Assembly (NCBI GenBank): GCA_020201275.1 | Contig: JAIVHB010000139.1 | Coordinates: 1-37,159 of the forward strand | Direction of reading: 5' to 3' | Source of the DNA: Rhodothermaceae bacterium | Lineage (GTDB): Bacteria > Bacteroidota > Rhodothermia > Balneolales > Cyclonatronaceae | DNA length: 37,159 nucleotides | Part shown: in pieces, positions 22,426 to 26,659 of the stretch | Position numbering within the stretch: position 1 is the first letter of the stretch | Layout of the letters: every line of letters begins with the position of its first letter | The notes under the pieces: generated by a model | The model's database searches: none | What the model was told of the DNA's origin: nothing | The model's input: the letters and a program-made list of their open reading frames with translations, nothing else | Made by a program: the position numbers and the translations under genes

Positions 22426-22441
22426 ATCCATATCTTTGGGA

Positions 22442-23344
22442 ATGAACAAAAAAGAGAATTTTCTTAAAAAAGACCGGATCCTGAAAGCTGTTACATCCGA
22501 CAAGTTCTTCAGAATAAGTGTGGTCAAAACAACCGATGTTGTAAGGGATGCGCAGAAAAAGCACAATCTGTCGCTTATCAGCAGTATCATACTGGGCAGG
22601 GCGCTTACCGGCGCCATGCTGCTGGCATCCGATTTAAAGAATGAGGAACGCGTATCGCTCCGGATCGAGGGCAGCGGCCCGATCGGTCACCTTATTGCCG
22701 AAGCCAACAGCAGCGGCGAGATACGCGGCTATGTTCTGAATCCCGCCGCGGTGCTGGATCCGGTGAACGGGGCCGTAATCGGCGACGGGCTCGGGCTAGG
22801 CCTGCTCACAGTTTCAAAAGTACTTTATAACGAAGCACGCCCCGTAAACGGTACCGTCGAACTCATCAGCGGAAATATCTCCGAAGATCTGGCCTATTAC
22901 CTCTTTCAGTCGGAGCAGATTGCCTCGGCTGTAAGCGTGGATGTTAGCCTCGATAATAACGGGATTGTGAACCATGCAGGTGGGGTACTGATACAGGCGT
23001 TGCCGGGTGCTCCGGCCGACAAAAGTGAACTGCTGCAGCAGAACCTGAGGGAGATGAAAACCATCAGTTCACTGCTGCGCGACGGCAATTATGTGGATGA
23101 TATCCTCAGAATTGTAACCCGGCCCTATGAGGTGAAAGAATTATCCAGATACCCGGTTCACTTTTTCTGCCGGTGCAGCAAAGAACGGTTCAAAAACGCC
23201 CTATACCTGGTTGAACTGGATGAACTGGTAGATATGTCGGATGAAGGCCACGATCTGGTCTGCCATTTTTGCAACAGCACGTACCATATATCCGGTACCG
23301 AGATCGGTGAGATCATTCAGGACCTGAAGATCAAGATGAACTGA
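22442..23344 (+). CDS. hslO: Redox-regulated chaperone Hsp33
   Basis: The 300-residue protein has the Hsp33 core (RILKAVTSDKFFRISVVKTT, LSLISSIILGRALTGAMLLAS, LRIEGSGPIGHLIAEANSSG in parts, GYVLNPAAVLDP) and the C-terminal zinc site FFCRCSKERF plus VCHFCNSTYHI, giving CxC-X28-CxxC. It is a cytoplasmic holdase activated when oxidation releases zinc and forms disulfides. I choose ATG 22442; a TTG 6 bp upstream is in frame. The 16-bp gap after leucine dehydrogenase suggests one transcript. Confidence 0.95.
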   Translation: MNKKENFLKKDRILKAVTSDKFFRISVVKTTDVVRDAQKKHNLSLISSIILGRALTGAMLLASDLKNEERVSLRIEGSGPIGHLIAEANSSGEIRGYVLNPAAVLDPVNGAVIGDGLGLGLLTVSKVLYNEARPVNGTVELISGNISEDLAYYLFQSEQIASAVSVDVSLDNNGIVNHAGGVLIQALPGAPADKSELLQQNLREMKTISSLLRDGNYVDDILRIVTRPYEVKELSRYPVHFFCRCSKERFKNALYLVELDELVDMSDEGHDLVCHFCNSTYHISGTEIGEIIQDLKIKMN

Positions 23345-23387: not shown

Positions 23388-24200
23388 CTAAGGCGCCGAA
23401 ATGAGCACTATATCTTCGGCAACAAGGCCCTTCTCGTTCTGCACCAGGTCGAACTCAAAAATCAGGTCCCTGCTGGGCAGGAATGAGCTGTCGAAGTCGG
23501 TTTCAAACTGCGATACATGGGCAAAAACGGTTTTGTAGGGCGATTCCGACGACCGGGAATCCGTTATCCACAGATTGTCGTCGATGCGTGCCATGTAGCG
23601 TAGGAAACCGTAACCGTCTGAGTGGGAAAAGTCGTAGCAGACCCCGCGCACTCTTGAACCCACTGTACCCCATTCATAGGGCGATTTAACCGGCAGCAGC
23701 CCGGGAATGGTATAGCCCGAAATGAACATGTCGACAGACCGTTTTAGCCCGAGCGGCACATTGTCGAAACCGATCATCTCAACCCTTACCCCCAAATTCT
23801 GAACAGCATTCACCACATTGATGAATGCCTCCTCATTGGTGAGAATGATTATCCTGTCCATCTCGGCGGCCTGGGTCAGGATATCGGTGGCCATGTGGAT
23901 GTCGAGGGCGCTTTTTTTAAGGCGGTCGCGTGAATCTGTTTCGGGATTGAATTTCATGGGTTTCTCAATCACCTTGTACTCAAAATCGCGCAACACTTCA
24001 CAGAACCGGGATGTTTTAACCTTATAATTCTGATCTTCCTTCGCCCTGTCTTTATCGAAAGCCAGATAGGCATGTAACCGGCTCGGCACGCTGCCATCGC
24101 GACAGGCAAATTTTCTGAGAATATCGTATCTGAGCCCGAATCCACCGTTTAGTGTAACATCGACTGCGTCGACATAAATACCAACTTTTCTGCTTTTCAT
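23388..24200 (-). CDS. NYN/LabA-like domain fused to a C-terminal cold-shock domain
   Basis: Residues 1-163 form a NYN (PIN-like, DUF88) domain: KVGIYVDAVDVTLNGG with Asp11, LRYDILRKFA, KKSALDIHMATDIL with Asp100, RIIILTNEEAFINVVNAVQNLGVRVEMIGF and LKRSVDMFISG. Residues about 184-268 look like a cold-shock domain: GVCYDFSHSDGYGFLRYM (RNP1-like GYGFL), VFAHVSQF (RNP2-like) and FEFDLVQNEKGLVAEDIVLI. NYN proteins are usually metal-dependent RNases; here the normal SGDxDF motif is TNEEAF (121-126), so one catalytic Asp is Glu and another Ala. I infer an RNA-binding protein with altered or absent cleavage. It is the last gene of a long minus-strand series, 117 bp after the flippase. Confidence 0.72.
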   Translation of the reverse strand: MKSRKVGIYVDAVDVTLNGGFGLRYDILRKFACRDGSVPSRLHAYLAFDKDRAKEDQNYKVKTSRFCEVLRDFEYKVIEKPMKFNPETDSRDRLKKSALDIHMATDILTQAAEMDRIIILTNEEAFINVVNAVQNLGVRVEMIGFDNVPLGLKRSVDMFISGYTIPGLLPVKSPYEWGTVGSRVRGVCYDFSHSDGYGFLRYMARIDDNLWITDSRSSESPYKTVFAHVSQFETDFDSSFLPSRDLIFEFDLVQNEKGLVAEDIVLISAP

Positions 24201-24317: not shown

Positions 24318-25787
24318 TCAGGCCTTGCTAAAATATCTGAACTGTACGAAACAGAGAACCGTTAATGCGGCCCCGCCAGTTAAAAATAGTAGTAATTTGA
24401 TGTGAATGCTAAAATCATTTACCGGCCAATAAGTTCCGTACAAAACGGGACCGAGGCTTACAGCCATCATTGCAAACGCCCTGCCCCACTGGTATGATAC
24501 GGGAAAAACGCGCCGGCTTCGAACATACAGAATAGCACACATGCTGGCATAACAGGCCAGTGTGGCCAGTGCCGAGCCTGTCATCCCCAGTTTGGGAACC
24601 AGTAACAGGTTCAGCAACACCGTAACCACAGAACCTGCAATCGTGATTCCGGGAAGTTCAATCGTTTTTTCGCGGATAAATATGCCCGCCGACAGATTCA
24701 CGAACCATCCCTGGAACCAGTACGCCAGCAGCAGCCACGGTACGATGGAGAGGCCCATCCAGTAGCGGCTGTCGATAATGGTTGCATCGAGCAGTGGCAC
24801 GTTGATCCGTACTATCTCATGGGCAAACAGCCCTACCGTGAGCACAACAACTGCCGCCACATAGTTGAAATAACGAAAAACATCCCGGAAAACCAGAGGG
24901 GCATCGTCGGCGGTGGCGTGCCGCATAAAGAATGGCTGCCAGGCCAGCTTGAACATCTGTACCACAATCAGCATGAAAATGGCTAGCTTGTAGCACGCGT
25001 TATAGATTCCGGTGATATCCTCTGGCGAGTACCCCGCCCCGTAGATCCGGGTGATGTCGGCAACAGACATGGCGTTCAGGAAGAACCGGTCGAGCACCTC
25101 ATTTATCGCGAACCCGATACCGTTCGGCACATAGGGAAGGCCGAACAGCAGGGCCGTTTTGAGCAGATCATAACTCCATACACCCTTGTATTTCGGCAGG
25201 GTTATCACGAACAGAACTCCCGTAGAGAATAATGAGGCTATGATATTACTGATCAGAATGGCTTCCAGGCCCCATCCCAGCCCGATCACCAGGTACAGGT
25301 TCAGCCCCACATTTATTGCCACATTCACCAGCCGTATGCTGGCATAGCTCACGGCTTTTCTGACAAGCCGCAACTCGGCATAGGGAACAATACCGAGGGC
25401 ATCCAGCCAGATGATTACCAGCATCATAAAAAAGAGGTTCCCGCCGCCACCGTAGAGGCTCATCAGGGGCATTATTACCGGTGCAGCCAGCCACAGAAGC
25501 CCGCACAGGCCGGTTCCGATGCCCAGCAGCGACAGCTGAACGGTTTTGAAAACGTCGTCGGAACGCCCCCGGTCTGCGGCATACCGGATGTAAGACGACT
25601 CCATCCCGAAGGTGTAAATTACGTTCAGGAATACGATGGCCGCATAGATAAGCCCTATTACACCGTATTCGGCCGGGTTAAAAAACTTGGTGTAAAATGG
25701 AACCAGCAGGTAATTGATAAAGCGGGCAACAACCCCGCTCAACCCGTAGATCACCGAGTCGGATAACAATTCCCTGATGCGGCTCAA
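24318..25787 (-). CDS. Wzx/RfbX-like polysaccharide flippase (MOP superfamily)
   Basis: The 489-residue protein has about 14 membrane helices. It starts SVIYGLSGVVARFINYLLVPFYTKFFNPAEYGVIGLI in pieces VIYGLSGVVARFINYLLVP and FNPAEYGVIGLIY, the typical opening of O-antigen/oligosaccharide flippases, and has ILLLVPKLGMTGSALATL-like text (LLLVPKLGMTGSALATLACY) near residue 400. It would move lipid-linked sugar chains across the inner membrane. The start is probably TTG at 25787, within the aroQ stop (TTGA), since no ATG lies nearby. The GT2 and PlsC genes upstream fit an envelope or surface-glycan role. Confidence 0.87.
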   Translation of the reverse strand: MSRIRELLSDSVIYGLSGVVARFINYLLVPFYTKFFNPAEYGVIGLIYAAIVFLNVIYTFGMESSYIRYAADRGRSDDVFKTVQLSLLGIGTGLCGLLWLAAPVIMPLMSLYGGGGNLFFMMLVIIWLDALGIVPYAELRLVRKAVSYASIRLVNVAINVGLNLYLVIGLGWGLEAILISNIIASLFSTGVLFVITLPKYKGVWSYDLLKTALLFGLPYVPNGIGFAINEVLDRFFLNAMSVADITRIYGAGYSPEDITGIYNACYKLAIFMLIVVQMFKLAWQPFFMRHATADDAPLVFRDVFRYFNYVAAVVVLTVGLFAHEIVRINVPLLDATIIDSRYWMGLSIVPWLLLAYWFQGWFVNLSAGIFIREKTIELPGITIAGSVVTVLLNLLLVPKLGMTGSALATLACYASMCAILYVRSRRVFPVSYQWGRAFAMMAVSLGPVLYGTYWPVNDFSIHIKLLLFLTGGAALTVLCFVQFRYFSKA

Positions 25788-26236
25788 TTAGCTGATTCCC
25801 GGCGTTTTTTGATGATCAGTTCGGCGGCCCGCACACCAAGACTATAACTGTCGAACCCCAGGCCGGCTATCACCGCATCGCAGGCACCGGCCGTGATCGA
25901 ATGGTGGCGGAACTCCTCGCGGGCATGGATGTTGGAGATGTGAACTTCCACCTTTGGAACAGACAACATCGACAGGGAATCCCTGAGCGATACAGACGTG
26001 TGCGACAGCCCGCCGGGATTGATAAGTACCGCATCGTACGCATTGCTCAATGGCAGCCTCTGCAACTGGCTGATGAGGTCTCCTTCATGATTGCTCTGGA
26101 AGAATTCAAAACTGTGCTGCCCGAAGGCCTCCTGCAAAATGGACTCCAGGTCTTCAAGGGTCTGATGCCCGTAGAGCTCCGGCTCCCGTTTTCCCAGCAT
26201 ATTCAGGTTCGGGCCATTTACGACAAAAATTCTCAT
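25784..26236 (-). CDS. aroQ: 3-dehydroquinate dehydratase, type II
   Basis: The 150-residue protein has the type II signature: FVVNGPNLNMLGKREPELYG near residues 4-23 (with active-site Asn and Tyr), FFQSNHEGDLISQLQ, LINPGGLSHTSVSLRDSL and VEVHISNIHAREEFRHHSIT with the catalytic His. It makes 3-dehydroshikimate in the shikimate pathway, as a cytoplasmic dodecamer. Its ATG overlaps the HIT stop (ATGA), and its stop overlaps the flippase start, so the three genes are translated together. Confidence 0.95.
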   Translation of the reverse strand: MRIFVVNGPNLNMLGKREPELYGHQTLEDLESILQEAFGQHSFEFFQSNHEGDLISQLQRLPLSNAYDAVLINPGGLSHTSVSLRDSLSMLSVPKVEVHISNIHAREEFRHHSITAGACDAVIAGLGFDSYSLGVRAAELIIKKRRESAN

Positions 26237-26631
26237 GGTTTCAACTCACTTCTGATTTTGGCGGCCACCTGCTCCATCTGCTCTTTCGACAGGTCGGCTT
26301 TTTTGCCAAGTGAAAAGGGTTGTGACGTTTTATAGATCGGAATAAGGTGGATGTGTGCATGAGGCACTTCCAGCCCCTGAACAATGAGACCGGTTCGGAT
26401 GCATCCAAGGGCCCGGTCGATCGCCCTGGCAACATCCCTGGCATAGATCACCATCTCTGCGAGCAGGTCGTCATCCAGGTCAAACAGGTAGTCGACCTCC
26501 TTTTTCGGGACAACCAGGGTATGACCCTCGCTCGACGGGTTGATGTCAAGAAATGCAAAGAAACGTTCGTTTTCAGCTATTTTATAGCAGGGGATGTCGC
26601 CCCGGATGATTTTTGTGAATATCGTTGCCAT
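26233..26631 (-). CDS. HIT-family nucleotide hydrolase
   Basis: The 132-residue protein shows the family series TIFTKIIRGDIPCYKIAENE, FAFLDINPSSEGHTLVVPKKEVDYLFDL in parts, and the histidine triad EVPHAHIHLIPI near residues 90-101. HIT proteins hydrolyse or transfer nucleotides from nucleoside phosphoramidates or adenylated compounds. The substrate is not clear. I use ATG 26631 (MATIFTK), which is where family similarity starts; the ATG at 26652 adds seven residues and would reach close to the heptad repeats. Confidence 0.92.
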   Translation of the reverse strand: MATIFTKIIRGDIPCYKIAENERFFAFLDINPSSEGHTLVVPKKEVDYLFDLDDDLLAEMVIYARDVARAIDRALGCIRTGLIVQGLEVPHAHIHLIPIYKTSQPFSLGKKADLSKEQMEQVAAKIRSELKP

Positions 26632-26659
26632 ACGCTTTGGATTTTGAGACACTGAGAAT

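Follow-up and report, generated by a model that had tools for sequence, protein, structure and literature searches.

Does a NYN domain that is joined to a cold-shock domain, and that carries an altered nuclease motif, still cut RNA, or has it been kept for another function? The question is raised by a gene on the reverse strand of the DNA analysed here, a stretch of 37,159 nucleotides from Rhodothermaceae bacterium (order Balneolales; contig JAIVHB010000139.1) that is referred to below as the window. Its open reading frame (23388-24200, coordinates that include the stop codon) encodes a 270-amino-acid protein, exactly as stated in an initial annotation made from the sequence.

Domain architecture and active-site residues of the window protein

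The following features were assigned to the gene and its product:

23388-24200, reverse strand: NYN-cold-shock (NYN-CSD) gene, 270 amino acids (open reading frame and matches in 60 of 98 genomes)
23706-24188, reverse strand: NYN domain, residues 5-165 (Pfam PF01936; 2qip profile and fold matches)
24168-24170, reverse strand: D11, the first catalytic Asp, retained in 62 of 62 orthologues (family alignment)
23901-23903, reverse strand: D100, equivalent of VPA0982 D92, retained in the window and E, A, S or N in 13 of 62 orthologues
23823-23840, reverse strand: degenerate motif TNEEAF, residues 121-126 (TGDGDF or SGDGDF in intact relatives)
23391-23660, reverse strand: cold-shock domain, residues 181-270 (profile, predicted fold and family alignment)
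Residues 196-200, within the cold-shock domain: RNP1-like GYGFL
Residues 225-230, within the cold-shock domain: RNP2-like VFAHVS
23535-23594, reverse strand: insert of about 20 residues (203-222) between RNP1 and RNP2, with invariant W211 and T213-R216

The window protein is a member of the NYN/LabA family (PF01936; LabA/DUF88-type, PIN-like). The Pfam NYN model matches residues 5-161 with E = 1.3e-14 and 55.4 bits (curated cut-off 24.2), and a profile of the NYN part matches VPA0982 (2qip) at E = 3.1e-9 in a PDB profile search. The predicted model has a PIN-like fold close to both VPA0982 and MARF1 (Foldseek E = 1.5e-8 to 2qip and 4.5e-6 to 6fdl, the MARF1 NYN domain); the mean pLDDT of this full-length AlphaFold2 model is 70, much of the NYN part being good and the C-terminal part poor. 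PADLOC matches only residues 64-144, to its generic 'LabA-like protein, NYN family nuclease' model, and Pfam gives no match to an OST-HTH domain in the protein.

The initial annotation described the C-terminus as cold-shock-like, and this is right: the C-terminal domain is a cold-shock domain. With the single sequence the Pfam CSD model (PF00313) remains below its cut-off for the full protein (E = 0.007), and the C-terminal domain alone (E = 2.9e-4, 21.1 bits) does not reach the gathering threshold of 27 bits, the match being confined to the second half of the profile, past a long insert. A profile of the C-terminal domain was then compared with the PDB, and all matches at E < 0.3 are cold-shock domains (YB-1/YBX2, CspE, Tm Csp and CspC; best E = 9.5e-4). 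Modelled alone, the domain comes out better than within the full-length model (mean pLDDT 77, pTM 0.70) and forms the five-stranded OB fold of the cold-shock type, with strands at 11-20, 25-31, 50-56, 75-83 and 86-96 of the model. Nearly all top matches in a fold search with this model are cold-shock-domain proteins (CspE, CspA, CRHSP-24, YB-1, Unr and Lin28). Another identity of the C-terminal domain, which the initial annotation had named as a possible outcome of structure prediction, is hence ruled out by the profile and fold matches. The domain has the fold and the RNP1- and RNP2-like motifs in common with CspE, CspA and YB-1, but differs from them by the insert between the two motifs and by its fusion to a NYN domain. 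GYGF (RNP1, GxGF) and F-x-H-x-S (RNP2, FxHxS) are both invariant across 62 Balneolales orthologues (G196, Y197, G198, F199, F226, H228 and S230), and from these residues the domain is predicted to bind RNA. The insert has a similar length in the genomes G236-G238 from another family of the class and is shorter in more distant homologues.

The active-site acids of NYN proteins are D14, D92 and D115 in VPA0982, with D358, D426 and D452 as their MARF1 equivalents (PMC11346440). According to the profile and family alignments their counterparts in the window protein are D11, D100 and E123, while the second Asp of SGDxD corresponds to A125; D11 is mapped by the common VDxxN start, and D92 and D115 are placed on the assumption that the 2qip chain carries a three-residue tag, an offset that suits both residues. 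The three positions are thus not all Asp, with Glu at 123, and the SGDxDF motif of an active NYN nuclease is missing, TNEEAF standing in its place as first reported. The initial annotation also counted two differing metal-binding acids, one of them at the start of the domain. Both Asp residues of the motif have changed (D to E at 123 and D to A at 125), but the start, YVDAVDV, keeps the catalytic D11 and departs from DxxN only at the Asn, which is Asp here. Acids still occupy all three canonical positions (D11, D100 and E123), and residual activity of the window protein may be possible.

Decay of the nuclease motif across Balneolales

Our family alignment comprises 62 distinct orthologue sequences from Balneolales. 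Position 122 is occupied by N, S or H and in no sequence by G, and position 125 by S (40), K (11), N (4), G (4), A (2) or E (1) and in no sequence by D. At position 123 we found N in 29, S in 15, Q in 8, D in 5, E in 4 and H in 1, a non-acidic residue in 53 of the 62; at least 13 changes are placed at this site on the tree, and its rate is at the 74th percentile. The former motif region now contains 22 different hexamers, and the motif has therefore decayed and has not been replaced by a new fixed one. This does not agree with a 'rewritten' motif, as it was first called, nor with conservation of TNEEAF among two-domain homologues, which the initial annotation proposed to look for: the string is private to the genus of the window, where two genomes carry it, whereas the degeneration is order-wide. 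TNEEAF as a new fixed motif is accordingly ruled out.

Six homologues from outside the order (L038, L039, L040, L061, L062 and L076) have the same layout, DxxN, D100 and an intact TGDGDF or SGDGDF. Homologues of this kind were expected by the initial annotation to imply a local mutation; they do exist, but all of them lie outside the order, and the change is therefore old and lineage-wide. Local mutation or sequencing error is also ruled out, since the 62 distinct sequences that show the degeneration come from many assemblies. In the maximum-likelihood tree the outsiders are split from Balneolales by one long branch (bootstrap 100), and parsimony reconstructs S125 and N123 as the basal states within Balneolales. 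The simplest reading of these patterns is that G122 and D125 would have been lost once, in an ancient event, and that drift at 123 followed. The SGDxD-type motif is generally conserved in NYN proteins, and it is from this conservation and from the small outgroup (six sequences, three of them near-identical) that the direction of change, from intact to degenerate, is deduced. As a control, all 16 LOTUS/OST-HTH-type NYN genes found by tblastn in genomes of Balneolales keep SSDSDF.

The alignment also bears on the possibility that the protein is still an active nuclease with an altered and sparser metal site, in which D11, D100, E/D123, D106 and D157 would hold one metal ion and cleavage would be slow, or the cold-shock domain would limit it to certain substrates. 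D11, D106 and D157 are invariant in all 62 orthologues and among the slowest-evolving sites, residue 100 is acidic in 58 (D 49, E 9; otherwise A 2, S 1 and N 1), and residue 123 is acidic in the window and in eight other sequences, two of which (L030 and L044) keep Asp at 11, 100 and 123 alike. Moreover, the equivalent of D11, retained in the window protein, is indispensable in a NYN protein of B. fragilis (PMC11346440). However, the active site of MARF1 consists of D358, D426, D427 and D452, and mutation of D426/D427 impaired silencing (PMC6294520). Because the equivalent of D452 is non-acidic in 53 of the 62 orthologues, a catalytic mechanism that relies on this residue cannot be shared by the family, and D106 and D157 may be structural. 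We regard a still-active nuclease as unlikely, though it deserves some weight.

Two further observations concern NYN proteins elsewhere. L078 (G129:C12:169200-170700; 214 amino acids as read), which belongs to a different family of the class, reads SGNGHF instead of SGDGDF and is possibly an independent degenerate NYN-like protein. L098 and L080 are NYN proteins with intact SGDGDF or SGDSDF, and their C-terminal stretch looks S1-like by eye, a NYN-OB fusion within the phylum.

Distribution, selection and genomic neighbourhood

Of the 98 genomes of relatives that were searched, 60 carry the NYN-CSD gene, which is represented in 25 of the 33 genera; complete matches to other genomes are 54-97% identical. 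An orthologue with 97% identity is that of Balneolaceae bacterium DLM2.Bin41, and those of Fodinibius/Aliifodinibius are 66-67% identical, one of them (L032) being carried by an isolated host, Fodinibius halophilus. In the rest of the class a strong match is seen in one family only, in three species (G236-G238), together with one more marginal match (E = 7e-4), and a wider scan detected homologues in one Saprospiraceae, one Syntrophobacteria and one Nitrospinota record.

Strong purifying selection acts on the gene, and its cold-shock domain is the more conserved half. For every pair with usable dS the dN/dS ratio is 0 to 0.05, in the NYN part and the cold-shock domain alike, with dS near saturation for many pairs. 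The mean site rate is 0.66 in the cold-shock domain versus 1.00 in the NYN part, and 30 of the 62 invariant residues sit in the former, which makes up a third of the protein length. A pseudogene is ruled out by these dN/dS values and by the lack of internal stops in any of the 60 genomes.

The neighbours of the gene are as follows:

22436-23344, forward strand: Hsp33 gene, convergent with the NYN-CSD gene and 43 bases apart from it
24318-25787, reverse strand: polysaccharide flippase (Pfam Polysacc_synt_3), the conserved upstream neighbour, next to the gene and in the same orientation in 54 of 59 genomes
25784-26236, reverse strand: aroQ, type II dehydroquinase (Pfam; same neighbour in at least eight relatives)
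26233-26652, reverse strand: HIT-domain gene (Pfam; same neighbour in at least six relatives)

In the 54 genomes the NYN-CSD gene lies directly downstream of the flippase gene, at 61-336 nt in 53 and at 1,091 nt in one. The five exceptions are two genomes without a close flippase match, two with the flippase on another contig (G011 and G035) and one in which it is 3 kb away (G070). The initial annotation placed the gene at the end of a series of adk, plsC, a GT2 gene, aroQ and a flippase. All of these are present in the window, but the HIT-domain gene had been missed, and adk, the acyltransferase gene (plsC) and GT2 are local only; the upstream series conserved across families is HIT-aroQ-flippase. 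Within the 120 nt upstream of the gene a structured leader is not supported (z = 0.25), no defence neighbours were recognised around it, and a PHROG search for a phage origin gave no notable match. With the generic PADLOC match as the only sign of a defence system, both this reading and a phage origin were set aside.

Such conserved adjacency could mean that the role of the protein is tied to the flippase/aroQ operon, for instance by regulating the export of envelope polysaccharides post-transcriptionally, in which case the state of the nuclease site would be irrelevant. However, the operon persists without the NYN-CSD gene in the genera g25 and g8 (several genera, g25 and most of g8, lack the gene), the outgroup genome G238 has the gene without a flippase- or aroQ-type neighbour, and the adjacency may only reflect slow rearrangement within one order; we consider a role bound to the operon very improbable. 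Eight genomes that lack the gene still have the flippase, in most cases with aroQ and HIT recognisable beside it, and no trace of a former NYN-CSD gene was detected at the flippase locus. As the operon is kept without it, the gene is dispensable over evolutionary time.

Alternatively, the protein could lack catalysis of its own and, as a partner, complete the active site of a different PIN/NYN nuclease, for which the composite PIN of SMG5 and SMG6 is a precedent (PMC12923823). The genome of the window does contain a second NYN gene, L085 (G000:C47:8717-9124), with an intact SSDSDF; it was aligned with the L087 protein, which is taken as LOTUS type from its layout. Sixteen Balneolales genomes have a LOTUS NYN gene of the L085 type, many others do not, and NYN-CSD is the sole NYN match in many near-complete genomes (e.g. 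G014, G017, G019, G028, G034, G040, G049 and G051). A NYN partner is therefore not general according to the NYN searches, an obligate one in the same cell is unlikely, and we hold the whole partner explanation to be quite improbable.

A probable pseudo-nuclease and its known relatives

We think it fairly probable that the Balneolales NYN-CSD protein is an old pseudo-nuclease kept as an RNA-binding adaptor. In the ancestor of Balneolales the SGDxD motif would have been stripped of its Gly and its second Asp. Drift of the metal-binding Asp123, mostly to Asn or Ser, would have followed, and as a metal-dependent RNase the NYN domain is most likely no longer efficient. The cold-shock domain would still bind single-stranded RNA through its conserved RNP1/RNP2-like residues, and the protein would for this reason have been retained. 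The NYN fold, with conserved D11, D106, D157 and an NGGxGxRYD segment, may serve as a scaffold for binding RNA or a partner, and the adaptor would hold, shield or present transcripts. Loss of cleavage, RNA binding and the adaptor role are the parts of this reading that we infer, whereas the domains, the order-wide loss of the motif, the purifying selection, the slower evolution of the cold-shock domain and the conserved gene order were observed. The initial proposal of a conserved pseudo-nuclease with an RNA-binding domain seems to fit the order-wide motif loss, the purifying selection and the conserved cold-shock domain. Against the adaptor stand the retained D11 and D100 and the Glu at 123 in the window, the two orthologues with all three Asp, and the missing gene in g25 and most of g8, where its function is dispensable.

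The 'new type' of RNA regulator first suggested is too strong a term: in 2010, Anantharaman, Zhang and Aravind reported bacterial proteins in which NYN/LK-nuclease domains are fused to S1/cold-shock OB folds (PMC2848206). The combination of NYN with a cold-shock or S1 domain is thus already known. Like the window protein, the fusions of 2010 combine a nuclease-type domain with an OB-fold RNA-binding domain, but they are predicted RNases and are mentioned alongside OST-HTH proteins. LabA/LK-nucleases such as VPA0982 (DUF88, NYN PF01936) have the same fold, NYN layout and D11 and D100 positions, whereas the window protein lacks SGDGDF and has gained the C-terminal domain. The NYN domain of MARF1 (6fdl, 5yaa) is a fold match and is likewise linked to RNA-binding domains; however, MARF1 keeps all four of its acids and cuts RNA, while the position of its D452 is occupied by E123 in the window and, in most orthologues, by Asn or Ser. 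The PIN domain of SMG5, in which the acidic residues are missing, is on its own inactive as an RNase (PMC6294520). It resembles the window family as a PIN-superfamily domain that is conserved and functional although its metal-binding acids are lost, but SMG5 is a eukaryotic NMD factor without a cold-shock domain that completes SMG6 (PMC12923823). A search of the open literature, with most subscription papers outside its scope, found nothing on a catalytically degenerate bacterial NYN or NYN-cold-shock family.

We tentatively suggest, as a possibility on the doubtful side, that the family is an order-wide dead NYN nuclease turned RNA-binding regulator and the prokaryotic equivalent of SMG5 and similar pseudo-PIN proteins, in which the cold-shock domain would select targets and the pseudo-nuclease domain would protect them or recruit another factor. 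Known pseudoenzymes of the PIN/NYN superfamily are mainly eukaryotic. The annotation 'LabA-like protein, NYN family nuclease' may mislead for NYN-CSD genes, and a bacterial family that has an isolated host and intact relatives within its class would allow tests of the role that a nuclease fold takes on once it has stopped cutting.
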